A DNA stretch of 39,886 bases from Mangrovicoccus algicola (GTDB lineage: Bacteria > Pseudomonadota > Alphaproteobacteria > Rhodobacterales > Rhodobacteraceae), in assembly GCF_014903745.1 (NCBI RefSeq), contig NZ_JACVXA010000048.1:1-39886 (forward strand), given 5' to 3'. Numbering within the stretch: position 1 is the stretch's first letter; each line of letters begins with the position of its first letter. Below, one piece after another: positions 860 through 16,903 of the stretch. Under the pieces are notes generated by a model. That model had not been told where the DNA came from and ran no database searches. It saw nothing but the letters and a program-made list of their open reading frames with translations. The position numbers were made by a program, and so were the translations under genes.

Positions 860-876
860 TTGCGATAGTATAACAT
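860..876 (-). promoter_or_regulatory. Zur-like operator upstream of the DUF3299-ABC operon
   Basis: Read on the minus strand the site is ATGTTATACTATCGCAA. It matches the classical Zur core TGTTATANTATAACA perfectly in one half and partly in the other. It sits 38 bp from the start codon and covers likely -10 sequence, which fits repression. Two other sites in this window (2571 and 16887) align with it at most positions. Confidence 0.6.
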
Positions 877-931
877 ATCTTGTGACGCAAGGGGCAGTCC
901 CGCCCCCGTGACGGCATATTGCCAAAGGCAA

Positions 932-956
932 AAGGGTCCCGCAGGACGGGACCCTT
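932..956 (-). terminator. Intrinsic terminator of the alkaline phosphatase gene
   Basis: A perfect 10-bp stem (AAGGGTCCCG / CGGGACCCTT) with a 5-base loop. On the minus strand it is followed by TTGCCTTT. It begins 21 bp after the phosphatase stop codon, so the phosphatase transcript should end before the next Zur-like site. Confidence 0.85.
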
Positions 957-977
957 CACGTTTCGGTGCGCGCCCGA

Positions 978-2468
978 TTACTCGGCGGTCACGGCATGGT
1001 TCATCACGTGGAAGATCACGTTCTGCTCGATCGTGCCGTCGAACAGATGCGACCACGGGCCCTTCGCGTAAAGCGGGACATCGACGCCCGAATGCGATTC
1101 CGAGGAGGCGGGGATCAGCGCCTGCTGGATGTAGTCCAGATCCTGGGCCTCTTCCTGGCTGACATCGGGGCGGCCTTCGGGCGCGGCGAAGCTGCCGTCT
1201 TCCTGTTCGGTCAGCACCGAGCCCACGCCATTGGCATAGCTGACCACGGTATAGGGCTTGCCATCGGCGCCCAGGACCGGCTCGCCGCTGTGCTCGATGC
1301 CTTCCTGCGCGACATCGAAGCAGATGCCGTCGATCGGGGTGCCGCGGCCGCAATAGCCGTTGATGACGATGGAATGCTCGTGATCCGCGGTGACGATGAT
1401 CAGCGTGTCCTCGTCATCGGTCAGCTCGTCGGCCAGGGCGATGGCATCGGCGAACATCTTGCCGTCGATCATGGCGCGCTTGGCATTGCCGGCATGGTTG
1501 GCGTGGTCGACGCGCCCGGCCTCGATCTCCAGGTAGAACCCGTTCTCGTTCTGCGACAGGTACTCGATCGCCTTGCGGGTGGAGTCGGCCAGCGACGGCT
1601 CGCTCTCGGGGCGGTCGGCCTCGTAGGAGGCGTGGCTGTCGGTCCACATGCCCAGGATCGGCGCGTCCATGGACAGCGCGTCCAGCTCTTCGCGGTTCGA
1701 CGCATACTGGATGCCGGCCGCCTTGGCCTGCTCGATCAGGTTGACGCCGTCGGGACGATGGCCCTTGCCGCCATTGGGGGTCTCGGTGCCCTCGGGAACG
1801 AAGTAGCGTGCCCCGCCGCCAAGCGCGATGTCCAGCGTGCCCGCGGTCATGGCGTCGATCATCTGGGTGGCGATGTCGCGCGAGCCGTCGCAGCCCTCGG
1901 GGACGGAATCTTCCCAGTTGCGGTTGGCGGTCTTGGCATAGACGGCCGCCGGGGTGGCATGGGTCAGGCGCGCGGAAGTGACGGCGCCGACGGATTTGCC
2001 CGCCTCGGTCATCAGCTCCGAGAACAGCGTCAGCTCGTTGGCCGCCTCGGTGGAGCAATCGTCATGGATCGCGTTCTCGCCGAGGTTGATGAGGTTGAAG
2101 CGCTGCTTGACGCCGGTATTCATCGCGCCCGCGGTGGGGGCGGAATCCGGGGTCTGGGCGTTGATGTTGTAGGTCTTGACCAGCGCCAGGTTCGGGAAGG
2201 CCTCCTGCGGCTGGACGTAATCGTCGCCAAGCCCGCCTTCCTGCTGGCCGGTCCACAGGCGGATCATGTAATTCGAGGTGACGCCCTGGCCGTCGGCGAC
2301 GAAGAGGATGACGTTCTTGGCGCGGTTGGTGTTGGGCTGCTTGGCCAGCTCGGCCTCCAGGCGGGCCTGCCCGTCGGTGAACCAGTCGCTGCCGGATTGT
2401 GCGATTTCCTGGGCAAAGGCGCCGGAGGCGGCCATGGCAAGCGCCGAAGCGGCAAGCATCTTGTACAT
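978..2468 (-). CDS. phoA: Alkaline phosphatase, PhoA family
   Basis: Periplasmic phosphomonoesterase that releases phosphate from organic phosphate esters using two Zn2+ and one Mg2+. It has 496 residues with a Sec signal peptide of about 20 (ending ASGAFAQ). Conserved blocks are all present: VILFVADG with the metal-binding Asp near 59, DSAPTAGA with the nucleophilic Ser near 109, GRVDHANH carrying Asp/His metal ligands, VTADHEHS with Asp-His near 360, and HSGVDVPLYA with the last Zn-ligand His near 458. The gene is monocistronic by its strong terminator. The 142-bp upstream gap holds a Zur-like box and a weak PHO-box-like repeat. The first would be an unusual form of control for this enzyme. 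Its length is close to that of E. coli PhoA. Confidence 0.95.
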   Translation of the reverse strand: MYKMLAASALAMAASGAFAQEIAQSGSDWFTDGQARLEAELAKQPNTNRAKNVILFVADGQGVTSNYMIRLWTGQQEGGLGDDYVQPQEAFPNLALVKTYNINAQTPDSAPTAGAMNTGVKQRFNLINLGENAIHDDCSTEAANELTLFSELMTEAGKSVGAVTSARLTHATPAAVYAKTANRNWEDSVPEGCDGSRDIATQMIDAMTAGTLDIALGGGARYFVPEGTETPNGGKGHRPDGVNLIEQAKAAGIQYASNREELDALSMDAPILGMWTDSHASYEADRPESEPSLADSTRKAIEYLSQNENGFYLEIEAGRVDHANHAGNAKRAMIDGKMFADAIALADELTDDEDTLIIVTADHEHSIVINGYCGRGTPIDGICFDVAQEGIEHSGEPVLGADGKPYTVVSYANGVGSVLTEQEDGSFAAPEGRPDVSQEEAQDLDYIQQALIPASSESHSGVDVPLYAKGPWSHLFDGTIEQNVIFHVMNHAVTAE

Positions 2469-2518
2469 CGGAGGGTCCCTCGGAGGATTGTTCTGATGGA
2501 CATGCCCCTAGGACCGGC

Positions 2519-2536
2519 CTGTAACGGAACCGTGAC
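2519..2536. promoter_or_regulatory. Possible PHO box near the alkaline phosphatase gene
   Basis: CTGTAAC and CCGTGAC lie in direct repeat with a 4-base gap, giving the 11-bp period of PhoB sites (consensus CTGTCAT repeats). It lies about 50-70 bp before the phosphatase start codon. The repeat points away from the gene and each half has mismatches, so this is weak. Confidence 0.3.
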
Positions 2537-2570
2537 GCTTAGATGGATTTTCCATTACAATCAATGGGTT

Positions 2571-2587
2571 ACGTTATAGTATCACAA
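2571..2587 (-). promoter_or_regulatory. Zur-like operator upstream of the alkaline phosphatase gene
   Basis: On the minus strand it reads TTGTGATACTATAACGT. On the plus strand the core is GTTATAGTATCAC, one half perfect and the other with one mismatch to the Zur half-site TATAAC. It lies 103-119 bp before the phosphatase ATG and after the corA stop, so it can only serve the phosphatase. It overlaps a TATAAC hexamer that could be the -10 element. Confidence 0.55.
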
Positions 2588-2610
2588 GGATCAGCACGCC
2601 GCAACCGGGA

Positions 2611-3555
2611 TCACAGCCAGCGCCGCAGAACGAAGAACAGAAGGATCGCCGCCGAGGAGGCCGCCATCAGCCCCAGCGACACCTCGAAGCCCGCGATCCA
2701 GTGCAGCATCGGCATCTCGTCGAAATTCATCCCGAATATGGACGCGATCAGCGTCGCGGGCAGGAAGATCGTCGCCACCAGGGAGTAGTAGCGCGCATTG
2801 TCGTTCTGGCTGAGGCTGATCAGCCCCATCGTCGCGTCGATCGCCAGGCTGACCCGGCCCGCCAGCGCATCGGCATGCACGGTCAGCGCCTCCACGTCGC
2901 GATCGGCCGTCTTCAGGCCCGCCTTGCGGCTGAAGGCGACGCGGCCCTCGGCGCGCAGCTGGTCCAGATGCACCAGCGTGCGGCGCAGGATCAGCAGGTT
3001 CAGCCGGATATCCGACAGCGCCTCGCCCATCCGCCCGGTGGCGCGGATCAGTCCGCGCAGATCCTCGGCATCCTCCATCGCCTCGTCCTTGAAGACCAGC
3101 TGCGCGGTCCTGTCCAGTTCGCGGTCCCAGTTCTCCAGCACGTCGGCGATATGGCCCACCCCCAGCGCCAGCAGCGCCACGGCCACGTCGCCCGGCGTGC
3201 GCCGCCCCGCCAGCGAGAAGCCGTTCCACAGGTTGGGCCCCCGGAACCGCACCGTCACGACGCAGCCCTCGCGCAGCATCAGCGTCACCGGCGCGAAACT
3301 GTCATCGCCATCGCCCGAGGGTTCGGTCAGCATCACCGTCAGCATGTCGGCCCCGCCCCGCCGGGTCAGCCGCTGCGACGGTTCGATCTGGCTCATGTCC
3401 TGCAGCCGCGGGATCTCGAATCCCAGCGCGCGCATGCGTTCGGCATCGGCCTTCCCGGGATTGTAGAAATCGATCCACAGGGCGCCGGAGAGATCCTCGC
3501 GCGGGTCCATGGAGCGCAGCCCGGTCTCTTCGAGGCGATAGGCGGAGATGGTCAT
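2611..3555 (-). CDS. corA: CorA family magnesium/divalent cation channel
   Basis: Inner-membrane Mg2+ (and Co2+/Ni2+) channel, a homopentamer in known members. It has 314 residues with a large soluble N-terminal domain and two C-terminal membrane helices. The selectivity signature FGMNFDEMP (Gly-Met-Asn) falls between the helices near residue 280, preceded by YYSLVATIFLPATLIASI as expected for TM1. A ZntB-type Zn2+ transporter has the same fold and GMN motif, and with a Zur-like site next door that alternative is not excluded. The GMNFDEMP loop fits CorA well. The ATG at 3555 has AAAGGA at a suitable distance. It reads in the same direction as the DASS gene 127 bp upstream and the phosphatase downstream. 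Confidence 0.9.
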   Translation of the reverse strand: MTISAYRLEETGLRSMDPREDLSGALWIDFYNPGKADAERMRALGFEIPRLQDMSQIEPSQRLTRRGGADMLTVMLTEPSGDGDDSFAPVTLMLREGCVVTVRFRGPNLWNGFSLAGRRTPGDVAVALLALGVGHIADVLENWDRELDRTAQLVFKDEAMEDAEDLRGLIRATGRMGEALSDIRLNLLILRRTLVHLDQLRAEGRVAFSRKAGLKTADRDVEALTVHADALAGRVSLAIDATMGLISLSQNDNARYYSLVATIFLPATLIASIFGMNFDEMPMLHWIAGFEVSLGLMAASSAAILLFFVLRRWL

Positions 3556-3648
3556 GGGCGGCCGGTCCTTTCGGGCAGTCGGGCGAAACGCGCGCCCCCT
3601 TGCCTATCGCGCCGGCGCGGCGCGTCAAGGACCGGCAGGCCCCGGGGC

Positions 3649-3670
3649 CTCCCCCCCGCCGCCGGGGGAG
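3649..3670 (-). terminator. Candidate terminator of the DASS transporter gene
   Basis: A G/C stem CTCCCCC / GGGGGAG with an 8-base loop, starting 12 bp after the transporter stop codon. No T run follows, so efficiency is uncertain. Confidence 0.4.
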
Positions 3671-3681
3671 AGGCGCACGGG

Positions 3682-5268
3682 CTAGAGGACGATCCCGAAG
3701 GCAAGCCCGCCCAGCAGGTAGGTGAAGAGCGTGATCAGGATCACCCCCACCACGTTCAGCACGATGCCGCCGCGCGCCATCTGCCCGATCGTCACCGCGC
3801 CCGAGCCGAAGACGATGGCATTGGGCGGCGTGCCCACCGGCAGCATGAAGGCGCAGGTCGCCGCCAGCGCGGTCGGGATCAGAAGCGTCGTGGCATCCAC
3901 CCCGATCCCCTGGGCGACGCCGCCCAGCACCGGGATGAAGGTCGCCGCCGTGGCGGTGTTCGAGGTCACCTCGGTCAGGAAGATCACCAGCGTGACGACG
4001 CAGATCAGGATCACGATCAGCGACAGCGATCCCAGTCCTTCGACCTGCGCGCCGATCCAGCCGTCCAGCCCGGTCGCGGCCACGGCCGAGGCCAGGCTCA
4101 GCCCGCCGCCGAACAGCAGCAGCACCCCCCAGGGCAGGTCCTGCTGGGCCGTCTTCCAGTCCAGCACCATGCGCCCGCCGCGATCGCCGGGCAGCAGGAA
4201 CAGCGCGATGCCCGCGGCGATGGCGATGGCGGTGTCGTCGAGGCTGCCGAGCGCCTCGATCCCGGTGATGTCCGACAGAAGCCCCGGCACGATCCACAGG
4301 AAGGCGGCGCCGAGGAACACCCACAGCACCATCCGCTCGCCCTGGCTCATCGGGCCCAGCCCGGCGATCTGCTCGTCGATCATCGCCCGCCCGCCGGGGA
4401 TCTCCGCCAGGCGGAACCGGTAGAGCAGCTGGGTCATCAGCACCCAGGCGATCAGGATGAAGACCAGAGCCAGCGGCGCGCCCAGCAGCATCCATTGCAG
4501 GAAGCCCACCTCCTTGCCCAGCGAATCCGACAGATAGGCCGCCACGATGGCATTGGGCGGGCTGCCCAGAAGCGTGCCGAGCCCGCCGATCGAGGCCGAC
4601 CAGGCAATGGCCAGCACAAGGCAGACGCCGAAGGCGCGGATCTGCGGATCGGCGATCACCTCGGCGATGCGCCCGCCCGCATGCAGATCCGCCCCCACCT
4701 CGGCGCCCTGGGAGGTGGCGCGGCTGCGTTCCACCACCAGGGTCAGGATCGACAGGCCGATGGGCAGCATCATCAGCGTCGTCGCCGTGTTCGACACCCA
4801 CATCGACAGGAACCCGGTGGCCAGCATCATGCCCAGCACGATGCGCCGGGGCTGCACGCCCACCCGCACCAGCGTCATCAGCGCGATGCGCCGGTGCAGC
4901 TGCCATTTCTGCATGGCGATGGCGATCAGGAAGCCGCCGAGGAACAGGTAGACGATCGGGTTGGCATAGGGCGCGGTCGCCTGGGAGACGCTGCGCCCGG
5001 CCAGAAGCGGCAGCAGAACGATCGGCAGCAGCGAGGTGGCGGCCAGCGGAATGGCCTCGGTCATCCACCAGATCGCCATCAGCGTGGCGACGGCGGCGAC
5101 GGCGCGGCCCTCGGGCGTCAGCCCCTCCTGGCCGCCCAGCAGCAGCCAGACGATGACGGCGCCGAGAAGCCCGGCGATGCGCAGCCCCCAGCTCCAGCGC
5201 GGGTCGCGCACCGCCTCGGCCTCGGGGTCGGGCGCGGACGAGGCGCGCGCATGATCCGTGTCGGTCAT
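3682..5268 (-). CDS. DASS (SLC13) family sodium/anion symporter
   Basis: Polytopic inner-membrane symporter of 528 residues for di- or tricarboxylates or a related anion with Na+. Both inverted-repeat SNT motifs are visible: WVSNTATTLMMLP in the first half and VTSNTATAATFIPV in the second. The family signature PVGTPPNAIVFGSG follows the second, and a matching GSPPNAIVAAYLS block occurs in the first half. There are about a dozen hydrophobic segments, and the first 30 residues are a charged cytosolic tail. The ATG at 5268 has GGGAG eight bases upstream. The gene is divergent from the stress protein/AGCS pair, and an inverted repeat lies just upstream. Substrate cannot be read from sequence; C4-dicarboxylates or sulfate are both possible. 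Confidence 0.88.
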   Translation of the reverse strand: MTDTDHARASSAPDPEAEAVRDPRWSWGLRIAGLLGAVIVWLLLGGQEGLTPEGRAVAAVATLMAIWWMTEAIPLAATSLLPIVLLPLLAGRSVSQATAPYANPIVYLFLGGFLIAIAMQKWQLHRRIALMTLVRVGVQPRRIVLGMMLATGFLSMWVSNTATTLMMLPIGLSILTLVVERSRATSQGAEVGADLHAGGRIAEVIADPQIRAFGVCLVLAIAWSASIGGLGTLLGSPPNAIVAAYLSDSLGKEVGFLQWMLLGAPLALVFILIAWVLMTQLLYRFRLAEIPGGRAMIDEQIAGLGPMSQGERMVLWVFLGAAFLWIVPGLLSDITGIEALGSLDDTAIAIAAGIALFLLPGDRGGRMVLDWKTAQQDLPWGVLLLFGGGLSLASAVAATGLDGWIGAQVEGLGSLSLIVILICVVTLVIFLTEVTSNTATAATFIPVLGGVAQGIGVDATTLLIPTALAATCAFMLPVGTPPNAIVFGSGAVTIGQMARGGIVLNVVGVILITLFTYLLGGLAFGIVL

Positions 5269-5289
5269 GGAATCTCCCAGGAAAACTGA

Positions 5290-5312
5290 TTTGACCGATG
5301 AAATGGGTCAAA
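5290..5312. promoter_or_regulatory. Inverted repeat upstream of the DASS transporter
   Basis: TTTGACC and GGTCAAA form perfect 7-bp arms separated by 9 bases, 22 bp before the transporter start. The size and position fit a dimeric repressor site overlapping the promoter. The regulator is not identifiable, and no regulator gene is adjacent. Confidence 0.5.
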
Positions 5313-5526
5313 GGAGGCGGTTTGGCAACTCCCCGCGATGCGCAGCCCCCCCGGCGCAGGGCTGCCTCGAAAATGTGCAATCAGCCGGAAAACGGCCGGT
5401 TGCGGCCTGGCCGCGGCGCCCGGGGCTTCGACAGGACGGACGGATGGCGCAGGCTGACCCGGAGGCAGGCCCGTCCGGGCGGACCGCGCCTCCACCTCGC
5501 AGGAGCGCAAGAAAGGACAGTTGCCC

Positions 5527-5961
5527 ATGTCATCCACCATCGTCGTCGCCCATGACGGCAGCGACAGTTCCGAACGCGCCATGGCCTTCGCCGTGGACCG
5601 TGCCGGTGTCATAGGCGGCGCCGTGCTGGTCGCCCATGTGCTGGAATGGTCGCCCTATGCCTTCCTGACCAAGGAAGAGCTGGAGGAACGCCATGTCCGC
5701 CGCCGCGAGGAACTGGAACGCGCCGAGGCCGCGCTGCTGCGCCCGGTCCTGGAACGCCATGCCGCCAGCGGCGTGCCGATCACGACCGAGATGCGCTATG
5801 GCCATGTCGCCGAGACGCTGATCCGCATCGCCACCCAGGCGCAGGCCGTGCAGGTGGTGATCGGCCGCCGCGGCCAGGGCGGTTTCGCCAACCGGTTCTT
5901 CGGATCGGTCGCGGGCTCGCTGGTGCAGGCCTGCCCCGTCCCGCTGACCATCGTGCCGTGA
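5527..5961 (+). CDS. Universal stress protein, UspA family
   Basis: A single-domain Usp of 144 residues with the alpha/beta nucleotide-binding fold. The N-terminus IVVAHDGSDSSERAMAFA gives the first strand and the Asp/Ser loop. The C-terminus GRRGQGGFANRFFGSVAG is the ATP-binding G-x2-G-x9-G-S motif, followed by CPVPLTIVP. The ATG at 5527 is used rather than the TTG at 5521 because it matches the usual length and follows AAAGGA. It precedes the AGCS transporter by 20 bp, so they are probably co-transcribed. Usp proteins are often placed next to transporters as ATP-dependent modulators; that role here is inference. Confidence 0.92.
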   Translation: MSSTIVVAHDGSDSSERAMAFAVDRAGVIGGAVLVAHVLEWSPYAFLTKEELEERHVRRREELERAEAALLRPVLERHAASGVPITTEMRYGHVAETLIRIATQAQAVQVVIGRRGQGGFANRFFGSVAGSLVQACPVPLTIVP

Positions 5962-5981
5962 TCCGACAGCAAGGAGCTTCC

Positions 5982-7535
5982 ATGAAACATTCCCTGGCCC
6001 CCGTCCCGGCACTGGCCGCCCTGGGCGCGGCGATCATCGCCGCCGCCCCCGCCCTGGCCCAGACCGCGACGCTCGACGAGCGGATCAACACCGCCTTCGC
6101 CGGCGCGACCGGCTGGTTCGTCAGCCTGATCTTCGCGCCCATTCCCGGCACCGGCTTTCCCTGGATCGTCGCCTGGCTGGTGGTGGGCGCCACGGTCTTC
6201 TCCATCTATTTCGGCTTCGTGCAGTTCCGCGTGATCGGCCATTCCATCGCCCTGGTGAAGGGCGACTATTCCGATCCCGACGATGCCGGGGAGGTCAGCC
6301 ATTTCCAGGCGCTGGCGACGGCGCTGTCGGGCACGGTCGGCCTGGGAAACATCGCGGGCGTCGCGGTCGCGGTGGGCATCGGCGGGCCGGGCGCGACCTT
6401 CTGGATGATCCTCGCGGGGCTTCTGGGCATGGCCAGCAAGTTCACCGAATGCACCCTGGCGGTGAAGTACCGCAACGAATATCCCGACGGGCGCGTCTCG
6501 GGCGGGCCGATGTACTACATGACCAAGGGCTTCGCGCTGCGCGGCGCCTGGGGCGGCAAGCCCTTGGCCGTGCTCTTCGCGATCTTCGCCATCCTGGGCT
6601 CCTTCGGGGGCGGCAACATGTTCCAGTCCAACCAGGCCCATGCCCAGCTGGTCAATGTCTTCGGCGAGTTTCCCGGGGTGATCACCGGCGTGGTCTTCGC
6701 CGCCATCGTCTTCGCCGTGATCGTCGGCGGCATCCGCTCCATCGCGCGGGTCACCGAAAAGGTCGTGCCGCTGATGGGCGTCATCTATGTCGGCACCGCG
6801 CTGGTGATCCTGGCGATCAATTTCGACCAGATCGGCTGGGCGATCGGGCAGATCTTCGCGGGCGCCTTCACCGGGCTGGGCGTCGCGGGCGGCATGGCGG
6901 GCGCGCTGATCCAGGGGTTCAAGCGCGCGGCCTTCTCCAACGAGGCGGGGGTGGGGTCGGCCGCCATCGCCCATTCGGCGGTGCGCACCAAGGAGCCGGT
7001 GACCGAGGGCTTCGTCGCGCTTCTGGAGCCGTTCATCGACACGGTGGTGATCTGCACCATGACGGCGCTGGTCATCATCATCACCGGCCAGCTGGTCAGC
7101 GACCCCGAGACCGGGCTCTATATCGTCGGCGAAGGCGGGTCGATCGAGACGCTGGCGGGCAATACCGGCGTGGCGCTGACCTCGGCGGCCTTCTCGCAGA
7201 GCGTGCCGATCTTCCGCTACATCCTGGTGGTGGCGGTGATCCTCTTCGCCTTCTCGACGATGATCTCCTGGTCCTATTACGGGCTGAAGGCCTGGACCTT
7301 CCTCTTCGGCGAGGGAAAGACGACGGAGCTGGTCTACAAGCTGATCTTCTGTTTCTTCGTCATCGTCGGCGCGGCGGCCAGCCTCGGCCCGGTGATCGAC
7401 TTCTCCGATGCCGCGATCTTCGCCATGGCGGTGTGCAACATCGCGGCGCTCTACGTGCTGATGCCGATCGTCAAGGCCGAGATGGAAAGCTACCTGTCGC
7501 GGCTGAAATCGGGCGAGATCCGCAAGTTCACCTGA
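5982..7535 (+). CDS. Alanine or glycine:cation symporter, AGCS family
   Basis: An inner-membrane Na+ (or H+)-coupled amino-acid importer of 517 residues, with about ten or eleven membrane segments and an N-terminal hydrophobic leader (ALGAAIIAAAPALAQ). Family motifs include YRNEYPDGRVSGGPMYY, EAGVGSAAIAHSA and TEGFVALLEPFIDT. It starts at the ATG at 5982 with AAGGAG seven bases upstream. The upstream stress-protein gene is close enough for one transcript, and a strong hairpin directly after the stop ends it. Alanine and glycine are the usual substrates of the family; which one is used here cannot be decided. Confidence 0.93.
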   Translation: MKHSLAPVPALAALGAAIIAAAPALAQTATLDERINTAFAGATGWFVSLIFAPIPGTGFPWIVAWLVVGATVFSIYFGFVQFRVIGHSIALVKGDYSDPDDAGEVSHFQALATALSGTVGLGNIAGVAVAVGIGGPGATFWMILAGLLGMASKFTECTLAVKYRNEYPDGRVSGGPMYYMTKGFALRGAWGGKPLAVLFAIFAILGSFGGGNMFQSNQAHAQLVNVFGEFPGVITGVVFAAIVFAVIVGGIRSIARVTEKVVPLMGVIYVGTALVILAINFDQIGWAIGQIFAGAFTGLGVAGGMAGALIQGFKRAAFSNEAGVGSAAIAHSAVRTKEPVTEGFVALLEPFIDTVVICTMTALVIIITGQLVSDPETGLYIVGEGGSIETLAGNTGVALTSAAFSQSVPIFRYILVVAVILFAFSTMISWSYYGLKAWTFLFGEGKTTELVYKLIFCFFVIVGAAASLGPVIDFSDAAIFAMAVCNIAALYVLMPIVKAEMESYLSRLKSGEIRKFT

Positions 7536-7541
7536 CCCCTC

Positions 7542-7577
7542 GGGTCCGGCCGCCCCGCGCGGGCGGCCGGACCCTTT
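7542..7577 (+). terminator. Intrinsic terminator after the AGCS gene
   Basis: A perfect 14-bp stem (GGGTCCGGCCGCCC and its complement) with a 5-base loop, followed by TTTC. It starts 6 bp after the stop codon. Confidence 0.85.
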
Positions 7578-7635
7578 CGCAAAGCATTCAGGCACCTGAC
7601 ACGGCACCTCTTCCACCGGCACATGGAGGAAAACC

Positions 7636-7854
7636 ATGAATTAGATAAAGCGGCATACATGGGCATTCGTGGCATTCCCCCTGATCCTCTTGACGGGGGC
7701 CCTGACCAGATGGGCAAGCCGGGCCCATGATTGCGATGGCTCGGCGACATGCGATCTGATGCTCTGGTCCGCCATTTACGTGCCTTGCGCGGTCCTGATC
7801 TATTTCGTCGCGAGGAAGGTCCATCAATTGGTCACGGGAGAGAGTGACCCGTAA
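7636..7854 (+). pseudogene. Small two-helix membrane protein with an amber codon at position 3
   Basis: A strong ribosome site (GGAGG) precedes an ATG at 7636, which reads Met-Asn-stop (TAG) and then stays open in the same frame to 7854. The continuing frame encodes about 69 residues with two hydrophobic segments (WAFVAFPLILLTG and LMLWSAIYVPCAVLIYFVA) separated by a loop containing Asp-Cys-Asp and Thr-Cys-Asp. I do not recognise the family. The simplest reading is a gene recently broken by a nonsense mutation. Alternatives are translation from the GTG at 7669, which lacks a clear ribosome site, amber read-through, or a sequencing error. It follows the AGCS terminator, so it would need its own promoter. 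Confidence 0.5.
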
Positions 7855-7899
7855 CCTGCGGGATGTCCCGGGATGCGCGAAGACATGACCGCATGCCAA

Positions 7900-8264: not shown

Positions 8265-8373
8265 GGCGCGTTCCTTCCGTCGGCCGCATCCGCAGCCCGC
8301 GGCCTTCCGGGACAGGCGGCGGCCCGATGCAAAGGAATAGCCCTGCCTCAGCATGAATTCTCTTCATGGCGCC

Positions 8374-8395
8374 GATAAGGCAAAGCGGCCTTATC
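8374..8395. promoter_or_regulatory. LysR-type operator, perfect dyad GATAAGGC-N6-GCCTTATC
   Basis: Perfect 8-bp arms with a 6-base centre lie between the LysR remnant and the hydrolase operon, 62 bp before the hydrolase start. This is the normal location and size for a LysR recognition site. Its own regulator appears dead, so it may now be unused or served by a paralogue. Confidence 0.6.
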
Positions 8396-8456
8396 CTGCC
8401 CCCTGGGCCGCTCCAGATTGGGGGACAGACGACAGGCCCGAACCGGAGTTCCCGAC

Positions 8457-9533: not shown

Positions 9534-9599
9534 GCCGCCGGGCCTGCCCCGTGGCGGGGCAGCCCCGTTCATCCCGCGACAGATCACGGAGACGACCCC

Positions 9600-10055
9600 A
9601 TGAAGATGACCCTCGCCGCGCTCGCGCTGAGCCTCGCCGCCCCCGCGGCCCTCGCCCAGCAGATGACGCAGACCACGCCCCTGGAACGGGGCGGCCGGAT
9701 CGGCAGCCCCGAGACCTTCACCGGCACGGTCTTCGTCGCGCCGGTCTTCGGCCCCGAGATGAACGATGTCAGCGCAGGGGAAGTGACCTTCATGCCCGGC
9801 GCACGTTCGGCATGGCACACCCATCCGGTCGGCCAGTACCTCGTCGTGACCGCGGGAACCGGCTGGTACCAGGAGGAAGGCCGGGAAAAGCAGGTGATGC
9901 GCACCGGCGATGTCGTGTTCGCCCCGGCGGGGGTGAACCATTGGCATGGCGCAACCGACGGAACCTCCGTCACCCATTACGCGATCCAGGCGGTTCGGGA
10001 CGGCTCTGCCGTAACCTGGGGGGAGCTGGTCTCCGACGAGGATTACGGCGGCTGA
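9600..10055 (+). CDS. Periplasmic single-domain cupin
   Basis: A 151-residue cupin with a Sec signal peptide ending near residue 20 (AAPAALAQ). Metal-ligand motifs are AWHTHPVGQ (His73, His75, Gln79) and NHWHG (His114, His116). It closely resembles the cytoplasmic cupin two genes downstream in its ligand blocks and in the C-terminal TWGELVSDEDYGG, so the two are paralogues. The family includes Mn2+-dependent hydroxynitrile-lyase-like cupins. The gene lies 66 bp after the hydrolase with its own GGAG site. The reaction is unknown; an exported form of this cupin type fits the exported hydrolase before it. Confidence 0.85.
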   Translation: MKMTLAALALSLAAPAALAQQMTQTTPLERGGRIGSPETFTGTVFVAPVFGPEMNDVSAGEVTFMPGARSAWHTHPVGQYLVVTAGTGWYQEEGREKQVMRTGDVVFAPAGVNHWHGATDGTSVTHYAIQAVRDGSAVTWGELVSDEDYGG

Positions 10056-10132
10056 ACCCGATGCCCGCCGCCGGGGTCCGGCATGACCGGACCCCGCACC
10101 ATTTCCATTTCTCCGATATCCAGGATGCGCCC

Positions 10133-10894
10133 ATGAAAACCCGGATGATTGCCACCGCCTTCGCTCTTGCCGGCACCGCCGCCTCGGCCCAGGATCTTGC
10201 CCGGTCCCTCCCGGGCGCGGTCGATGCGGTGGCTCCGGCCCTCGCCGCCTATTCCGCCGAGGATCTCTTCGCCTCCGTCTGGAACGACGAGGCGCTCCCG
10301 ATGCGCGACCGCGCGCTGGTCACTTTCGCGGCGCTGGTCACGCGTCACGAAGCCGACGCCCTCGGCCGTCACGCCGAACTGGCGCTGGACGCGGGCGTGA
10401 CCCCGGCGGAACTGTCGGAAACCATCACCCATCTTGCCTTCTACACCGGCTGGGGCAACGCCACCGCAGCCGCCGAGGCCATGGCCCCGGTCTATGAATC
10501 GCGGGGCGTGACCGCCGAAGATCTGCCCGCCCCCGACCCCGATCTCCTGCCGCTGGACGAGGAGGCCGAGGCCGCGCGGGAAGACACCGTCCAGACCAAT
10601 TTCGCCCATGTCAGCCCCGGCGTCGTCGAGACCACCCGCGAGCTGCTGTTCAACGACCTCTGGCTGCGCCCGGACCTTGCGCCCCGCGACCGCAGCATGG
10701 TCACCGTCGCGGCGCTGATCGCCGCAGGCCAGCCCGAGCAGATGACCTTCCACCTGAACCGCGCCATGGATAACGGGCTGACGCAGGAGGAGGCAGGCGC
10801 GATGCTCTCGCATCTTGCCTTCTATGCGGGCTGGCCCAGGGTGTTCTCGGCGATGCCCGTCGCGCGGCAGGTCTTCGAGAGCCGCGCGAACTGA
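10133..10894 (+). CDS. Exported protein with two carboxymuconolactone-decarboxylase-like domains
   Basis: A 253-residue protein with a short signal peptide (ending TAASAQ near residue 20). Two CMD-fold repeats follow. In the first, [16 protein letters not shown] is followed by [19 protein letters not shown] and HLAFYTGWG. In the second, [16 protein letters not shown] is followed by [19 protein letters not shown] and HLAFYAGWP. No AhpD-type CxxC pair is present, so a peroxidase role is unlikely. Two tandem CMD domains in an exported protein, between two related cupins, suggest the three act on one compound; this is inference from gene order. The start follows the first cupin by 77 bp, with GGAT as a weak ribosome site. 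Confidence 0.87.
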
Positions 10895-10944
10895 AATCCT
10901 GCGGCGCGGTCCCGGACGCGCCGCCCCACCAAAGGAGATATCCC

Positions 10945-11340
10945 ATGAAGATCATCCGCGCTGGCAGCACGCCCTCCGCCCCCGGTCCCGAAGACTATTT
11001 CACCGGGACCGTGCGGATCGACCCCATGTTCCAGGCCGACGCCCCGGGCCGCACCAGCGGCGCCCATGTCACCTTCGAGCCCGGCGCCCGCACCGCGTGG
11101 CATACCCACCCGGCGGGGCAGACCATCATCATCACCTTCGGCCGCGGCCGGGTGCAGCGCGAGGGCGGCCCGGTCGAAGAGGTCACGGCAGGCGATGTCG
11201 TCTTCTTTCCCGCCGAAGAGAAGCACTGGCACGGCGCCGCGGCCGAAACCGCCATGTCGCATATCGCCATCCAGGAGAGCATCGACGGCACGCCCGTGAC
11301 GTGGCTGGAGAAGGTGTCGGACGCGGATTACGCCGGCTGA
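10945..11340 (+). CDS. Cupin related to Mn-dependent (R)-hydroxynitrile lyases
   Basis: A 131-residue cytosolic cupin without a signal peptide. It begins [11 protein letters not shown] and has [29 protein letters not shown] and EKHWHGAA. Ligand positions His53, His55, Gln59 and His94 coincide with those known for the bacterial cupin hydroxynitrile lyase type (GtHNL group), and the surrounding blocks also agree. That activity may be a side reaction, since genome context gives no cyanogenic substrate. The ribosome site AAGGAG lies close upstream. It ends the four-gene set and is followed by a hairpin. Confidence 0.85.
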
Positions 11341-11350
11341 CGGCACGCAG

Positions 11351-11375
11351 GCTGCCGCCGTTTCGCGGCGGCAGC
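11351..11375 (+). terminator. Hairpin after the hydrolase/cupin operon
   Basis: A perfect 10-bp stem GCTGCCGCCG / CGGCGGCAGC with a TTTCG loop, 10 bp after the cupin stop. No T tail follows. Confidence 0.5.
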
Positions 11376-11528
11376 GCGGTCTCGGCTGCAGGGCGGGCCT
11401 GGCCGTCGATGCGCCGCCCGGCGCCCCCGATGCGCGGGCCCCCGGCGCGTCCACATGGCGGCTATGCCTTGCCCCCGCCGCCATGGCAGCCTAGCTCTTG
11501 GCCGCGGTAACAGTGCAGGAGCGTACCC

Positions 11529-12272
11529 ATGTCCCCCATTCATGCCATCGGTGACATCCATGGCCAGATCGGCCAGCTGGAAACCGCCCTGGAGCTGATC
11601 GAGAAACATGGAGAGCCCGGCGCACCGATCGTGTTCTGCGGCGATTACGTCGATCGCGGCCCCGACTCCCGGGCGGTCATCCGGCTCCTGATGGAGGGCC
11701 AGGCGGCGGGGCGCGACTGGATCTGCCTGATGGGCAATCACGACCGGTTCCTGCTGCGCTATCTCGACGATCCGCGCTACGAGGATCCCAATGTCTCGCG
11801 CCCGCTTCTGTGGACCGACCCGCCGCTGGGCGGGGCCGCGACGCTGGCCTCCTACGGGGTGGACGTGGCGCCGGGGCGCAGCCTCGAGGAGATCCATGCC
11901 GATGCGCGCGAGGCGGTGCCGCAAGCCCATCGCGACTGGATCGCCGCGCTGCCGCGGATCCACGAGACCGGGGACCAGATCTTCGTCCATGCCGGGCTGC
12001 GCCCGGGCGTGGCGCTGGAGGACCAGGCCGAGGATGACCTGGTCTGGATCCGCAACGGCTTCCTCGAAAGCCCGGTCGACTGGGGCCGCCTGGTCGTGCA
12101 CGGCCATACCGCCCTGGACCGGCCGGAATTCTACGGCAACCGGCTGAACCTCGATGGCGGGACGGGCTATGGCCGCCCGCTGGTGCCGGCGCTGCTGGAG
12201 GGGCGGACGGTCAGCCTGCTGGGCCGGACCGGACGCGAAGAGCTGGGGATCAGCGAACTGGTCGGCTACTGA
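11529..12272 (+). CDS. PP1/PP2A-type metallophosphoesterase (protein serine/threonine phosphatase-like)
   Basis: A 247-residue calcineurin-fold phosphatase. The dinuclear metal-site motifs appear in order: GDIHG (8-12), GDYVDRG (38-44), GNHD (69-72), FVHAGLRPG (about 152) and VVHGHTALD (about 190). This matches bacterial lambda-phosphatase/PrpA-like enzymes acting on phosphoproteins, or ApaH-like enzymes on dinucleoside polyphosphates; the short length and GDYVDRGPDS favour the former. The start has AGGAG at correct spacing. It is convergent with parE, with a small hairpin in the 33-bp gap. Confidence 0.9.
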   Translation: MSPIHAIGDIHGQIGQLETALELIEKHGEPGAPIVFCGDYVDRGPDSRAVIRLLMEGQAAGRDWICLMGNHDRFLLRYLDDPRYEDPNVSRPLLWTDPPLGGAATLASYGVDVAPGRSLEEIHADAREAVPQAHRDWIAALPRIHETGDQIFVHAGLRPGVALEDQAEDDLVWIRNGFLESPVDWGRLVVHGHTALDRPEFYGNRLNLDGGTGYGRPLVPALLEGRTVSLLGRTGREELGISELVGY

Positions 12273-12284
12273 CCCGCCGGGGCA

Positions 12285-12302
12285 GGGGCGCGCAGGCGCC
12301 CC
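12285..12302. terminator. Shared hairpin between convergent phosphatase and parE genes
   Basis: A 7-bp stem GGGGCGC / GCGCCCC with a 4-base loop in the 33-bp convergent gap. It has no T run; it could weakly stop transcription from both sides. Confidence 0.4.
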
Positions 12303-12305
12303 GCC

Positions 12306-14264
12306 TCAGACATCCAGCTCGTCGACGAATTGCGCGTTCTCCTGGATGTACTGGAACCGCAGCTCGGGCTTCTTGCCCATCAGCTGCTCGACCAGCTGCC
12401 CGGTCTCGCCCGGCTCGTCCTCGTCGATCGACACCCGGATCAGCTTGCGGCTGGCGGGATCCATCGTCGTCTCCTTCAGGTCCTTGGCGTCCATCTCGCC
12501 CAGGCCCTTGAAGCGAGACACGTCGATCTTGCCCTTGCCGCCCAGCCCCTTGGCCAGCCAGGCGTCGCGCTCGGCCTCGTCGAGGCAATAGACCCGCTTC
12601 GCCCCCTGGGTCAGGCGGAACAGCGGCGGGCAGGCCAGGTAGAGGTGGCCGTGATCGATCAGCGGCCGCATCTGCGAGAAGAAGAACGTCATCAACAGCG
12701 ACGCGATATGCGCGCCGTCGACATCCGCGTCGGTCATGATGATGACCTTGTCATAGCGCAGGTCGTCGATGCTGAACCGCGACCCCATGCCGACGCCAAG
12801 CGCCTGGCACAGGTCGGAAATCTCCTGGTTGCCCGACATCTTGGCGCTGGCCGCGCCCAGGACGTTGAGGATCTTGCCGCGCAGCGGCAGCAGCGCCTGG
12901 GTCCTGCGGTCGCGTCCCATCTTGGCCGACCCGCCCGCCGAGTCGCCCTCGACGATGAACAGCTCCGTGCCGTCGCGGGCGCCCTGCGAACAGTCGACCA
13001 GCTTGCCCGGCAGGCGCAGCTTCTTGGTGGCCGACTTGCGCGCAGTCTCTTTCTCGGCCTTGCGGCGCAGCCGTTCCTCGGCGCGCAGCACCAGGAAGTC
13101 GAGGATCGCGCCCGCGGATTTCGTGTCGCCCGCCAGCCAGCTGTCGAACCGGTCGCGCACCGCGTTCTCCACCAGCCGCGCGGCCTCGGTCGTGGCCAGC
13201 CGGTCCTTGGTCTGGCCGACGAATTCCGGGTCGCGGATGAAGCACGAGACCAGCGCGCAGCCCCCCGCCATCAGGTCGTCGCGGGTGATCTGCGCCGCCT
13301 TCTTGTTGCCCGCCAGCTCGCCATAGCCCTTCAGCCCCTTCAGCACCGCCGCCCAGAACCCGCCTTCATGGGTGCCGCCCTCGGGGGTGGGCACGGTGTT
13401 GCAATAGGACTGGATGAAGCCGTCGCGCGCGGGCGTCCAGTTGATCGCCCATTCGACCGAGCCGGGCACGCCGAATTTCTCCTGGAATTCCACCTTGCCC
13501 GCGAAGGGCCGGTCGGCATAGGTCGAGGCCCCGCCCAGCGTCTCGGCCAGGTAGTCGGCCAGCCCGTTGGGGAAGTGGAACACCGCCTCCGCCGGGGTCT
13601 CGCCATCGTCGATCGCCGTCTTCCAGCGGATCTCGACCCCCGAGAACAGATAGGCCTTGGAGCGCACCATCTTGAAGAGCCGCGCGGGCTTGAACTTCTT
13701 GTCGCCGAAGATCTGCGCATCGGCATGGAAGGTGACGCTGGTGCCGCGGCGGTTGGGGGCCTGGCCGACCTTCGCCACCGGTCCCTGCGGGATCCCGCGG
13801 GAGAATTCCTGGGCATAGAGCTCGCGGTTGCGGGCCACCTCGACGCGCATGTGATCCGACAGGGCGTTGACCACCGAGGCGCCGACCCCGTGCAGGCCGC
13901 CCGAGGTCTGATAAGCCTTACCCGAGAACTTGCCGCCCGCATGCAGCGTGCACAGGATCACCTCCAGCGCCGACTTGCCGGGGAATTTCGGATGCGGGTC
14001 GATCGGGATGCCGCGGCCATTGTCGCGGATCGTCACCGAGTAATCGGCCGTCAGCTCCACCTCGATGCGGTTGGCATGGCCCGCCACCGCCTCGTCCATG
14101 GAGTTGTCGAGGACCTCGGCCACCAGATGGTGCAGCGCCCGCTCATCCGTGCCGCCGATATACATGCCCGGGCGCTTGCGCACCGGCTCCAGCCCCTCGA
14201 GCACCTCGATGGACGAGGCGTCGTAGGTATCGGTCTGGGTGGAGGAGAGGAGATCTTCGGCCAT
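12306..14264 (-). CDS. parE: DNA topoisomerase IV subunit B
   Basis: The ATPase subunit of topoisomerase IV, which decatenates daughter chromosomes together with ParC. It has 652 residues, the usual length for alphaproteobacterial ParE. The GHKL ATPase has LDNSMDEAV with the Mg-binding Asn near 54, IRDNGRGIPID, and GGLHGVGASVVNALS. The Toprim domain has EGDSAGGSA near 435 and TDADVDGAHI near 510, and the C-terminus ends in the GLGEMDAKDLKETTM region. GyrB is excluded by the shorter length without an insert and by the Toprim context, although gyrB/parE separation by eye is not absolute. GGGGCAG precedes the ATG. Confidence 0.93.
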   Translation of the reverse strand: MAEDLLSSTQTDTYDASSIEVLEGLEPVRKRPGMYIGGTDERALHHLVAEVLDNSMDEAVAGHANRIEVELTADYSVTIRDNGRGIPIDPHPKFPGKSALEVILCTLHAGGKFSGKAYQTSGGLHGVGASVVNALSDHMRVEVARNRELYAQEFSRGIPQGPVAKVGQAPNRRGTSVTFHADAQIFGDKKFKPARLFKMVRSKAYLFSGVEIRWKTAIDDGETPAEAVFHFPNGLADYLAETLGGASTYADRPFAGKVEFQEKFGVPGSVEWAINWTPARDGFIQSYCNTVPTPEGGTHEGGFWAAVLKGLKGYGELAGNKKAAQITRDDLMAGGCALVSCFIRDPEFVGQTKDRLATTEAARLVENAVRDRFDSWLAGDTKSAGAILDFLVLRAEERLRRKAEKETARKSATKKLRLPGKLVDCSQGARDGTELFIVEGDSAGGSAKMGRDRRTQALLPLRGKILNVLGAASAKMSGNQEISDLCQALGVGMGSRFSIDDLRYDKVIIMTDADVDGAHIASLLMTFFFSQMRPLIDHGHLYLACPPLFRLTQGAKRVYCLDEAERDAWLAKGLGGKGKIDVSRFKGLGEMDAKDLKETTMDPASRKLIRVSIDEDEPGETGQLVEQLMGKKPELRFQYIQENAQFVDELDV

Positions 14265-14398
14265 TGCTGCCCCTAGGTCTTGTAGGTCAGGGGGCAGGAT
14301 AGGCTAATTGGAGCAGAGGCGAAAGGGGCGGCATGATCCGGATGCCGCCGATTCCGCGCAATGCCGCCCGCCGGGTCCGCATCGGGGCCGATCCGGGC

Positions 14399-15631
14399 TC
14401 AGGCCCCGGGACTGCGCGCGCGGATCAGCGCCGCCAGGCCCAGCATCGCGCAGAGCACGCCGCACACCCCGGCCCAGCCCCCGGCCTGCCAGGCCACCCC
14501 GCCGCCCGGCCCTGCCAGCGTCGCCCCGGCATAGAACGCAATCTGGTACAGCGCCGTCGCCTGCCCGCGCGCGGTTTCGGCCAGCCGTCCGACATCCCCG
14601 GCGCAGAGCGAATGCGCCCCGAAAAATCCCAGGGTGAACAGGACGATGCCGATCCCCAGCAGCGGCAGCGCCGGGCAGAGCGTCAGCAGTATTCCGGCCC
14701 CGGCCAGGCCGATGCAGGCCAGCGCCGCGCGCCGCGTGCCCAGGTGCCGCGCCAGGCGTTCGCTTTCCACCGCCGCGAAGGTCGAGGGCAGGAAGGCCAG
14801 CGAGACAAGGCCGACCGCGTGCTGGTCCAGCCCGATGCCGGGAGAGAGCAGGTGGAACCCCACGAGATTGAAGAAGGCGACAAAGGCCGACATCAGCAGG
14901 AACCCCTGCAGCACCGCATCGCGCAGCCCCGGATTGCGCAGATGCCCCAGATAGGTGCGCAGCGCCGCGGCGGGGGCCGGACTGCCGGGACGGAAATTGC
15001 GCGACGCCGGCAGCCACAGCCAGATCAGTGCCGCCGCCAGCAGCGCGATCCCCGCCAGGGCGGCGACCGGCAGCCGCCAGCCCGTCGTCTCGGCCAGCGT
15101 GCCCACCAAGAGCCGCGCCAGCATGCCGCCCAGCGAATTGCCCGCCAGCACCCAGCCCACCGCGCGCCCCAGGCTGTCGCGGTCCATCTCCTCGGCCAGC
15201 CAGGTCAGGTTGATCGCCGTGATGCCGCCCAGGATCAGCCCCAGCGCCGTGCGCAGCGCCAGGAACATCCCCCAATCCGCGGTCGCCGCCATCGCCGCCA
15301 GCAGCAGGGCGGTCATCAGCACCGAGGCCAGGATCACCGGCTTGCGCCCCAGCGCGTCCGAGACCGGCCCGGTGACCACAAGCCCCGCCGCCAGCGCCGC
15401 GGTGGGCAGGCTCAGGCTCAGGCCCGCCTCGGTCACGCCGATGCCGAATTCGGCGGCGAAGACCGGCATCAGCGGCTGCACGAAATAGAGCGCCGAGAAG
15501 GCGGTCGCGCCGCTGAGCACCAGCACCGCGCAGATGCGGAGGAAACCGGGGCTGTCATGACGGATCGGCCCCGGCGCGGAACGGGCAGGGGCACGGGGCG
15601 GGGCGGGGGCAAGGGCGGTATCGGCGGGCAT
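14399..15631 (-). CDS. Major facilitator superfamily transporter (YnfM/AraJ-like)
   Basis: A twelve-helix MFS permease of about 410 residues. The loop 2-3 signature is GPVSDALGRKPVILAS. An N-terminal Pro/Ala-rich cytosolic tail precedes helix 1 (ICAVLVLSGATAFSALYFVQ). The ATG at 15631 is preferred because the ATG at 15658 has no ribosome site and would leave very little leader behind the divergent promoter. Divergent from a LysR gene, which probably regulates it; drug or metabolite efflux is the common role of such pairs. The substrate is unknown. Confidence 0.85.
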   Translation of the reverse strand: MPADTALAPAPPRAPARSAPGPIRHDSPGFLRICAVLVLSGATAFSALYFVQPLMPVFAAEFGIGVTEAGLSLSLPTAALAAGLVVTGPVSDALGRKPVILASVLMTALLLAAMAATADWGMFLALRTALGLILGGITAINLTWLAEEMDRDSLGRAVGWVLAGNSLGGMLARLLVGTLAETTGWRLPVAALAGIALLAAALIWLWLPASRNFRPGSPAPAAALRTYLGHLRNPGLRDAVLQGFLLMSAFVAFFNLVGFHLLSPGIGLDQHAVGLVSLAFLPSTFAAVESERLARHLGTRRAALACIGLAGAGILLTLCPALPLLGIGIVLFTLGFFGAHSLCAGDVGRLAETARGQATALYQIAFYAGATLAGPGGGVAWQAGGWAGVCGVLCAMLGLAALIRARSPGA

Positions 15632-15665
15632 GCGGTCTTCTACTGGACGCGGAGCCATGCCGAAA

Positions 15666-15702
15666 ATACAATCGTGGCAACCCGACCATGCCGGAATTGT
15701 AT
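15666..15702. promoter_or_regulatory. Overlapping divergent promoter region, ATACAAT-N23-ATTGTAT
   Basis: An inverted pair of 7-bp arms. Each arm contains TACAAT, a 5/6 match to the -10 hexamer, one on each strand. The plus-strand copy (15667-15672) would start LysR transcription about 30 bp before its ATG, and the minus-strand copy would serve the MFS gene. The start sites would cross, so the two promoters should interfere with each other. Confidence 0.45.
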
Positions 15703-15708
15703 AGTCAG

Positions 15709-16593
15709 ATGGATCTGAAACGCCTACAGACCTTCCTGCGCGTCGCCGAGACAGGCTCGCTCAGCGCCGCCTCCGACCGGATGCGCATCGCCCAGCCCGC
15801 GCTGTCGCGCCAGATCCGCCTGCTGGAGGAGGAGATCGGCCAGGTGCTGTTCCTGCGCTCGCGCGAGGGCATGGCCCTGACCCCCGCCGGCGCGTTGTTG
15901 CAGACGCGCATCTCGGGGCTGCTGCGGCAGCTCGACCAGGGGATCGACGAGGTGCGCAGCCTTCGGGATGCGCCGCGGGGACGGGTCGCCGTGGGGCTGG
16001 TGCCCTCGGCCGCGGCGGTGATGGGCGCGGATCTGGCCCTGTCGGTGCGGGCCGCGCATCCCGGCATCCGGCTGAGCCTGCAGCAGGGCTATACCAGCCA
16101 CCTGACCGACTGGCTGCATCGCGGCGAGATCGACATGGCGCTGCTCTATGGCGGGGCCGGACGGCTGCCGGCGGAGGAACTGCTGCGCGAGGAACTGGTG
16201 CTGGTCGCCCCGCGCGGGCATCCGGTCCTGGGCGGGCCTGCAGACTTCGCCGCGCTGGCCGGGGCGGCGATGGTGCTGCCCGGGGCCGAGAACGGGCTGC
16301 GCCTGATCGTCGACCAGGCGGCGGAGCGGGCCGGGATCACGCTGGACGTGCTGGCCGAGGCCTCCGCCTTCCAGCTGCTGCTGGAACTCGTGACGGCGGG
16401 GACGGGCCTGTCGATCCTGCCGCGCAGCGCCCTGCCGGGATCGGCGGCAGCCGGGCGGCTGGACTGGACCGGCTTCGTCCCCCCGCTTCACCGCGACATC
16501 CACCTCGTGATGGCCCCCGCGGCCCGGCAGGGACGGGCGGCCCGGGCGGTGGTGCCTCTGCTGCGCCAGGCGGCGCTCAGCGCCCTCGGCTGA
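15709..16593 (+). CDS. LysR-type transcriptional regulator
   Basis: A 294-residue LTTR. The HTH (residues 3-60) reads LKRLQTFLRVAETGSLSAAS, with RMRIAQPALSRQIRLLEEEI for the recognition helix. The effector domain begins GRVAVGLVPSAAAVMG. The ATG at 15709 (MDLKRLQTF) is preferred over that at 15688 because family members start there and the earlier one lies inside the divergent promoter. It is the likely regulator of the divergent MFS gene. Its last 17 bases overlap the convergent DUF6525 gene. Confidence 0.9.
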   Translation: MDLKRLQTFLRVAETGSLSAASDRMRIAQPALSRQIRLLEEEIGQVLFLRSREGMALTPAGALLQTRISGLLRQLDQGIDEVRSLRDAPRGRVAVGLVPSAAAVMGADLALSVRAAHPGIRLSLQQGYTSHLTDWLHRGEIDMALLYGGAGRLPAEELLREELVLVAPRGHPVLGGPADFAALAGAAMVLPGAENGLRLIVDQAAERAGITLDVLAEASAFQLLLELVTAGTGLSILPRSALPGSAAAGRLDWTGFVPPLHRDIHLVMAPAARQGRAARAVVPLLRQAALSALG

Positions 16594-16858
16594 GCCGCTC
16601 GCGGGACAGCATCGCACGTTCGGCCCGGTCCAGCCGCTCCAGCACGGCCGCGATCCCCTCGGCCCGGTGGCGCGCCCAGATGCGGCGGCAGGAGGCGGGC
16701 GACCAGGGCAGGGCCGCCCCCGCAAGCCAGCCCCGCAGCGCCGCGGGCAAGGCATCGTAATCGCGCATCGGGTCGCCCTGCCGCCTGCGCCGCGGGAACC
16801 CGGTCTGCCCCAGATTGGCGGCGCGGGCGGCAGGGGGGCGGCGGGGGATCGGCGTCAT
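16577..16858 (-). CDS. DUF6525 family small protein
   Basis: A 93-residue basic protein with no signal peptide or membrane segment. It matches my recollection of the Rhodobacterales DUF6525 pattern: ANLGQTGFPRRRRQGDPM, then YDALPAALRGWL and ALPWSPASCRRIWARH. The function is unknown. GGAG lies at good spacing before the ATG at 16858. A Zur-like palindrome lies 29 bp upstream, so expression is predicted to respond to zinc. It contains a single Cys and few His, so it is not an obvious zinc binder; the many Arg residues could fit nucleic-acid or ribosome contact, but that is speculation. The 3' end overlaps the LysR gene tail to tail. Confidence 0.7.
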   Translation of the reverse strand: MTPIPRRPPAARAANLGQTGFPRRRRQGDPMRDYDALPAALRGWLAGAALPWSPASCRRIWARHRAEGIAAVLERLDRAERAMLSRERLSRGR

Positions 16859-16886
16859 GGCAGGGGCTCCGTCTCAGGCAGGATGT

Positions 16887-16903
16887 TCGTTATCGTATAA
16901 CAT
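16887..16903 (-). promoter_or_regulatory. Zur-like operator between DUF6525 and the beta-barrel gene
   Basis: On the minus strand it reads ATGTTATACGATAACGA, with a core GTTAT-N3-ATAAC that is fully symmetric. It is the best palindrome of the three Zur-like sites in the window. It is 29 bp from the DUF6525 start and 135 bp from the rightward outer-membrane gene, so DUF6525 is the primary candidate target. Confidence 0.62.

Follow-up and report, generated by a model that had tools for sequence, protein, structure and literature searches.

What controls the three leftward genes that each lie behind a short AT-rich palindrome on this contig, and do they belong to a zinc regulon? The stretch analysed, hereafter the window, is one whole contig (NZ_JACVXA010000048.1, G000:C89; 39,886 nucleotides) of Mangrovicoccus algicola. 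The genes encode a small, apparently exported protein with a CPFC motif, adjoined by the start of an ATP-binding cassette (ABC) ATPase gene, the alkaline phosphatase PhoA and a protein of the family DUF6525. We predict that all three palindromes serve as operators for the zinc sensor Zur and give this reading a probability of roughly 0.92. The sites themselves, their non-random placement, their partial conservation and the presence of like sites at zinc genes of the same genome are observed.

Three palindromes upstream of leftward genes

The original prediction had placed three near-identical palindromes ahead of leftward genes, and both pattern and matrix searches confirmed them. Operator 1 (860–876, minus-strand 17-mer ATGTTATACTATCGCAA) lies 40–54 bases upstream of the start codon of the CPFC-protein gene, operator 2 (2571–2587, minus-strand 17-mer TTGTGATACTATAACGT) lies 104–118 bases upstream of that of phoA, and operator 3 (16887–16903, minus-strand 17-mer ATGTTATACGATAACGA) lies 30–44 bases upstream of that of the DUF6525 gene, which places all three within 30–118 bases of the start codons of leftward genes. 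Their shared strand, to which attention had been drawn, is uninformative in the case of a palindrome. The claim of a classical Zur core held in part: all three sites align near the core TGTTATANTATAACA, but each is two mismatches away from it, and the consensus of the three is a composite that equals none of them. When up to three mismatches were allowed, TGTTATANTATAACA matched the window exactly three times, compared with a mean of 0.02 matches per shuffle in 100 dinucleotide shuffles.

Two matrices gave the same picture. The first was built from six Caulobacter and five Paracoccus published Zur sites and included no window site; the operators ranked first to third in the window, with scores of 18.9, 17.7 and 15.9, and the best places overlapping no operator scored 9.5 (at 2543, adjoining operator 2) and 7.8. 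In 200 dinucleotide shuffles of the window, matches scoring at least 14 averaged 0.065 per shuffle, and the top single score was 21.4. The second matrix, derived from six other sites of the same genome and 33 sites upstream of COG0523 genes in relatives, scored the operators 22.7, 22.4 and 20.7; the next non-overlapping places in the window reached 11.1 (directly beside operator 2) and 5.6, and the maximum in 30 simulated windows was 16.9.

Each operator also holds a second palindrome register on the minus strand, shifted by five bases. The weaker register of operator 1 (866–880) has four mismatches to TGTTAYRNYRTAACA, and those of operator 2 (2567–2581) and operator 3 (16893–16907) have three each. 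We took the best upstream site of each of 50 DUF6525 loci (described below). A second register with at most four mismatches lay at +5 in 25 of these sites and at −5 in 18; no other shift of up to 12 bases gave one in more than three. In Escherichia coli, two Zur dimers bind overlapping sites with an 18-base motif, according to the excerpts of PMC4219657, and we infer that this arrangement corresponds to the five-base offset. Two Zur dimers per operator are likely, as predicted from these registers.

The motif elsewhere in the genome

We searched the whole genome (4,394,518 bases in 145 contigs), using the pattern read backwards as the control. At no more than two mismatches to TGTTATANTATAACA, which we call the strong tier, five sites were found and none in the control; this result and the window count bear out the earlier statement that such sites are unlikely by chance. 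Three of the five are the window operators, and the only two outside the window, both on contig C125, lie upstream of COG0523-type genes: the site at C125:5756 precedes a COG0523-type GTPase gene, and that at C125:12918 precedes a ZigA gene (NCBIfam NF038288; score 603.8, cut-off 600). Weaker forms of the motif were found between znuA and zur (C34:80669) and upstream of an AztD-like gene (C65:15157; 355.3 bits, cut-off 400). The znuA/zur intergenic region carries TGTTACCTTGTAACA and a weaker second site, the latter recognized by eye. Zinc-related genes of the genome thus do have matches to the motif, strong ones at the ZigA and COG0523-type genes and weak ones at znuA/zur and the AztD-like gene, and these genome-wide sites support the zinc-regulon reading of the original prediction, in which the palindromes are Zur operators.

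The genome also encodes a candidate for the regulator. We found three Fur-family matches, one of which lies opposite znuA, with a znuC-like frame and znuB coming after it. This Zur protein matches FUR above the Pfam cut-off and the NCBIfam Zur model with 109.9 bits, under the cut-off of 167; the zur, znuA and znuB models all match under their NCBIfam cut-offs, and znuC is known here as a reading frame alone. Among solved structures, the encoded Zur matches 4mtd, named a zinc uptake regulation protein, with an E-value of 1.2e-25, and it scores better against 7dh7, named by Fur family only.

Several results speak against the Zur-operator reading. At no more than three mismatches, the genome contained 11 sites and the control 12, so that this weak tier is not above the control, and the degenerate consensus at two mismatches was not clearly above it either (14 against 11); the znuA/zur and AztD sites fall in these weak tiers. 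A promoter scan found no consensus promoter overlapping the operators; it gave one plus-strand match (2532–2561), which is off the sites and at about the shuffle level; the surroundings of operator 3 gave none. Because numbers do not set the weak tier apart from noise, the case is built on the strong tier together with position and conservation, and trust in the weak-tier sites at the znuA/zur, AztD-like and alcohol dehydrogenase genes rests on their position rather than on their number.

The last of these weak-tier sites (L042, C125:11492–11506) is upstream of a gene for a class III alcohol (formaldehyde) dehydrogenase and would perhaps place a zinc enzyme under Zur control. On the same contig (L042, C125:5257–5770), a HisI gene (NCBIfam NF000768, above the cut-off) and the COG0523-type gene face each other across the Zur-type site. 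Further candidates (L006, L008, L010, L194–L196 and C100:8263) were put aside as background and left unannotated.

The phoA cluster

The phoA gene (978–2468, minus strand) encodes a protein of 496 residues that matches PF00245 with an E-value of 2.3e-106 and 356.7 bits. The solved structures that score best against it are alkaline phosphatases of animals, and the residues that we take to be metal ligands were present upon inspection, by eye, of the alignment to the placental enzyme. With these ligands, PhoA does not seem to be a substitute that works without zinc. Two ideas may account for the induction of a zinc enzyme when zinc is lacking: more apo-enzyme may catch scarce zinc, or a dedicated unit may carry out its metallation.

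The phoA operator, GTGATANTATAACGTAAC, was kept in all three same-genus genomes that were aligned (our own, G001 and G002), where it stood out as conserved against diverged flanks, and operator 1, ATGTTATACTATCGCA, was identical in G001. For a wider comparison, 32 phoA loci were collected, comprising our own, 30 others of the 38 matching genomes among 394 genomes of the family (seven of the 38 were left out) and that of G002. The genes for phoA, the CPFC protein and the ABC ATPase are consecutive in 30 of the 32, with the CPFC gene directly downstream of phoA. A site upstream of phoA scored at least 12 by the published-site matrix in 11 of the 32 loci, our own included (shuffled mean 0.87, maximum 3), and at least 19 by the second matrix in nine, at 110–141 bases before the start. 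The evidence on the other side is that 21 of the 32 loci had no site at the threshold used, that among the 11 the L185 site consists of T-rich sequence and scores 11.3 by the second matrix, that operator 1 is absent from G002, and that the same-genus genome G003 gave no phoA match. Zur control of the phoA cluster is therefore predicted to be likely in this genome and patchy across the family.

Three further features of phoA were observed. In G001, the match is divided over two contigs (L066 and L067) at about residue 236, by rearrangement or by assembly. A direct repeat between operator 2 and phoA (2494–2520), noticed by eye, resembles a Pho-box; if it is real, phosphate and zinc control of phoA may combine. 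Between phoA and the CPFC gene (931–960, minus strand), a GC-rich inverted repeat followed by T was seen by eye, as if ending the phoA transcript; the terminator scan did not report it.

Among the gene labels of the original prediction, alkaline phosphatase (PF00245) and DUF6525 (PF20135) stood, but the label DUF3299 (PF11736) for the CPFC-protein gene (396–821, minus strand; 141 residues) was rejected, as this protein matched no family in Pfam at E-values up to 10 and none in NCBIfam. An hhalign comparison with DUF3299 gave a probability of 90 that was confined to the N-terminal 61 columns, signal peptide included. The CPFC motif is invariant in all five aligned sequences. The protein is apparently exported, as judged from a signal peptide recognized by eye and, for the relative at L068, from a TAT-signal match in Pfam. 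The neighbouring ABC ATPase gene (1–403, minus strand) is cut by the contig end, and relatives carry longer copies; it is LolD/YbbA/FtsE-like, with NCBIfam matches under their cut-offs, the best being YbbA at 68.6 bits. In the phoA clusters of L065 and L068–L071, a permease-sized frame comes next, and the one that was scanned (L068) matched FtsX at 19.6, under the cut-off of 25.5. No ZrgA was seen in the gene lists of the relatives' phoA clusters, for which no PF10986 search was made. It is conceivable, though we hold it to be doubtful, that, under zinc scarcity, the CPFC/ABC part assists in the metallation or folding of PhoA.

The DUF6525 gene and its neighbourhood

The DUF6525 gene (16577–16858, minus strand) encodes 93 residues and matches PF20135 with 99.1 bits, compared with a gathering score of 23.5. 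We compared the best 80 loci of 349 confirmed relatives, a sample that leans to close relatives. Upstream of DUF6525 on the same strand, a COG0523 gene was found in 61 of the 80, a DUF1826 gene in 40 and either in 65. The motif occurs within 3.6 kilobases (kb) upstream in 50 loci and anywhere in 51, and the reversed motif in eight. With the published-site matrix at a threshold of 12, matches were present in 59 of 80 upstream and six of 77 downstream regions. In 12 genomes that partly overlap these 80, the DUF6525 neighbourhoods, up to 12 kb long, all contained a site within two mismatches of the degenerate consensus; in one of them, L037, the site is downstream of the DUF6525 gene. The window gene stands alone yet retains its Zur-type site.

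DUF6525 and ZigA also tend to occur in the same genomes. Across 61 genomes, with ZigA presence called at E-values up to 1e-80, 11 had both, two had DUF6525 only, six had ZigA only and 42 had neither (Fisher p = 1.8e-6, kinship ignored); within the family's 37 genomes, the association remained (Fisher p = 3.3e-4, kinship likewise ignored).

Other observations detract from these associations. No motif was found within 3.6 kb upstream in 30 of the 80 loci, some of them shortened by contig ends, and shuffled upstream regions had a match in a mean of 17.8 of 80 (10 shuffles), which indicates that the matrix threshold is loose. The two genomes with DUF6525 and no ZigA match, and the six with the reverse, run counter to a strict pairing, and the ZigA match was above the curated cut-off in only four of the 61.

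Two side observations concern the neighbours. In L037 (G021, near 5505–6001), DUF6525 comes after a transposase-like frame that seems, by eye, to be fused to a short ZigA-like end. In seven of the 80 loci (L074, L095, L099, L102, L103, L105 and L118), zrgA-, ABC ATPase-, permease- and zrgE-like genes follow DUF6525 on the same strand, and these tie DUF6525 to a second zinc system.

Of the three window targets, only DUF6525 has published expression data that we found, by way of its presumed orthologue pden1340 in Paracoccus denitrificans. The exact pden1338 site was present in six of 125 Paracoccus genomes; among stretches from those six, one (G086, L162) contained both the pden1338 and pden1341 sites, at exactly the published distances (19–33 and 26–40 bases before the starts), and between them lie COG0523, DUF1826 and DUF6525 genes. 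G086 is most simply read as P. denitrificans or a very close strain, in which case pden1338–1340 would correspond to COG0523, DUF1826 and DUF6525, and pden1340 would be the DUF6525 orthologue. In Table 1 of PMC5387054, pden1340 is a hypothetical protein whose expression rose 8.6-fold when the medium was zinc-depleted and 8.3-fold when it was zinc-chelated. Since the pden1338 promoter is unnamed in the affinity ranking, as far as the excerpts of that paper go, Zur binding at this promoter is not claimed. DUF6525 was unmentioned in the papers covered by the analysis.

We aligned 53 DUF6525 sequences, namely our own and 52 of the 76 loci in which a start codon was found (four of the 80 had none). 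The sole Cys/His column above 30% was one Cys column at 68%, and a conserved zinc site is therefore unlikely. The predicted model has an arginine-rich tail followed by four helices, with a mean predicted local distance difference test (pLDDT) score of 77 and a predicted template modelling (pTM) score of 0.54. Fold comparison returned four matches, the best with an E-value of 5.1, so no solved fold was matched. Tentatively, DUF6525, with no conserved zinc site of its own, could assist the ZigA/COG0523 zinc-chaperone response as an accessory protein. Our first guess for its role is a ZigA partner or regulator, and our second is nucleic-acid or ribosome binding.

Alternative explanations

The alternative that survives best, though unlikely, is that operator 3 mainly serves the divergent rightward gene at 17038–17808 and not DUF6525. 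A palindrome is directionless, operator 3 lies in the intergenic region that both genes share, about 135 bases before 17038, and the divergent gene, which has a signal peptide by inspection, matches no family in Pfam or NCBIfam. However, the distance of 30–44 bases to DUF6525 is inside the range of 2–50 bases given for the Paracoccus sites in the excerpts of PMC5387054, and DUF6525 copies without an upstream COG0523 or DUF1826 gene (L081, L103, L118, L129, L131, L141 and L149) have a site no more than about 180 bases before the match.

It is improbable that a Fur-family regulator other than Zur (of the Fur, Irr, Mur or PerR type) uses the palindromes as operators, with the genes answering to iron, manganese or peroxide. 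Operators across the Fur family share a general shape, and the genome has three Fur-family members by match; however, the motif precedes ZigA and a second COG0523-type gene, with its weaker forms at znuA/zur and the AztD-like gene, and the window operators agree with the Zur sites published for P. denitrificans and Caulobacter.

That the sites are chance palindromes or a dispersed repeat without regulatory role is very improbable: one shuffled window did reach 21.4 and the weak-tier sites are near background, but all three operators sit just upstream of genes, the control gave no match in 4.39 Mb at up to two mismatches, and the phoA site is conserved between diverged flanks.

Comparison with known zinc systems

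Returning to the Zur-operator reading, we compared the predicted regulon with published ones, as described in excerpts of the papers. The P. denitrificans regulon (PMC5387054) is alike in palindrome type, in its znuA, zur, COG0523 and azt targets, and in the two sites between zur and znuA. It differs in that, here, phoA and the CPFC/ABC unit have sites, the site at the AztD-like gene is weak and the DUF6525 gene stands by itself. The Caulobacter crescentus regulon (PMC4176598) is alike in motif; its COG0523 protein ZrpX is likely cotranscribed with a Zur-repressed gene, and the ABC unit znuGHI is up in a zur mutant. Unlike the window, that paper's text contains no phosphatase. The Vibrio ZrgABCDE system (PMC9817125), which is induced without zinc, resembles the phoA-linked unit in its ABC ATPase, permease and small proteins, and Rhodobacterales zrg genes include an FtsX-type permease (L030, above the cut-off). 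In contrast, the window small protein is not DUF3299 by Pfam, and its unit travels with phoA. Among the Zur-regulated COG0523 clusters in the excerpts of PMC2770081, DUF1826 is named in a figure and HisI paralogues are listed; the HisI gene facing the COG0523-type gene across a site in this genome is a similar arrangement.

Our limited literature search found no Zur-regulated phosphatase in print: the word "phosphatase" did not occur in PMC6103462 or PMC4176598, nor "alkaline phosphatase" in the text of PMC5387054. A cyanobacterial phosphatase has been linked to zinc, with no Zur site reported before it in the relevant passages of PMC9337993.

Proposed model and implications

In the proposed model, Zur would be made from the gene beside the znuCB-like pair and opposite znuA. 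When zinc suffices, zinc-loaded Zur, probably as two dimers on palindromes offset by five bases, would cover and repress the promoters; when zinc is scarce, Zur would leave, and phoA, the CPFC protein with its ABC unit, and DUF6525 would be expressed. Zur binding, repression and a zinc response at the three window genes are all read from sequence and from the comparisons above. As a regulon, this would be ordinary in kind; its new members would be phoA with the CPFC/ABC unit, and DUF6525. A bolder and distinctly speculative version is that phoA, the CPFC protein and an FtsX-type ABC transporter form one machine, in which the CPFC/ABC part would deliver zinc to the exported phosphatase or insert it there, and that Zur took this machine over in part of the lineage, wiring zinc starvation to phosphate scavenging. 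DUF6525 would then be a new small helical zinc-starvation effector, arginine-rich in its tail and lacking conserved zinc ligands, that works with the ZigA chaperone or on RNA or ribosomes.

The three sites appear to bring a zinc-containing phosphatase, an adjoining transporter unit and a small protein into the zinc-starvation response. DUF6525, a Pfam family without function, thereby gains a probable place in that response, tied to published induction data, and the zinc chaperone ZigA becomes a partner that can be tested. A zinc-containing alkaline phosphatase is possibly under Zur control, and if this is true, zinc and phosphorus limitation would be linked in these bacteria.

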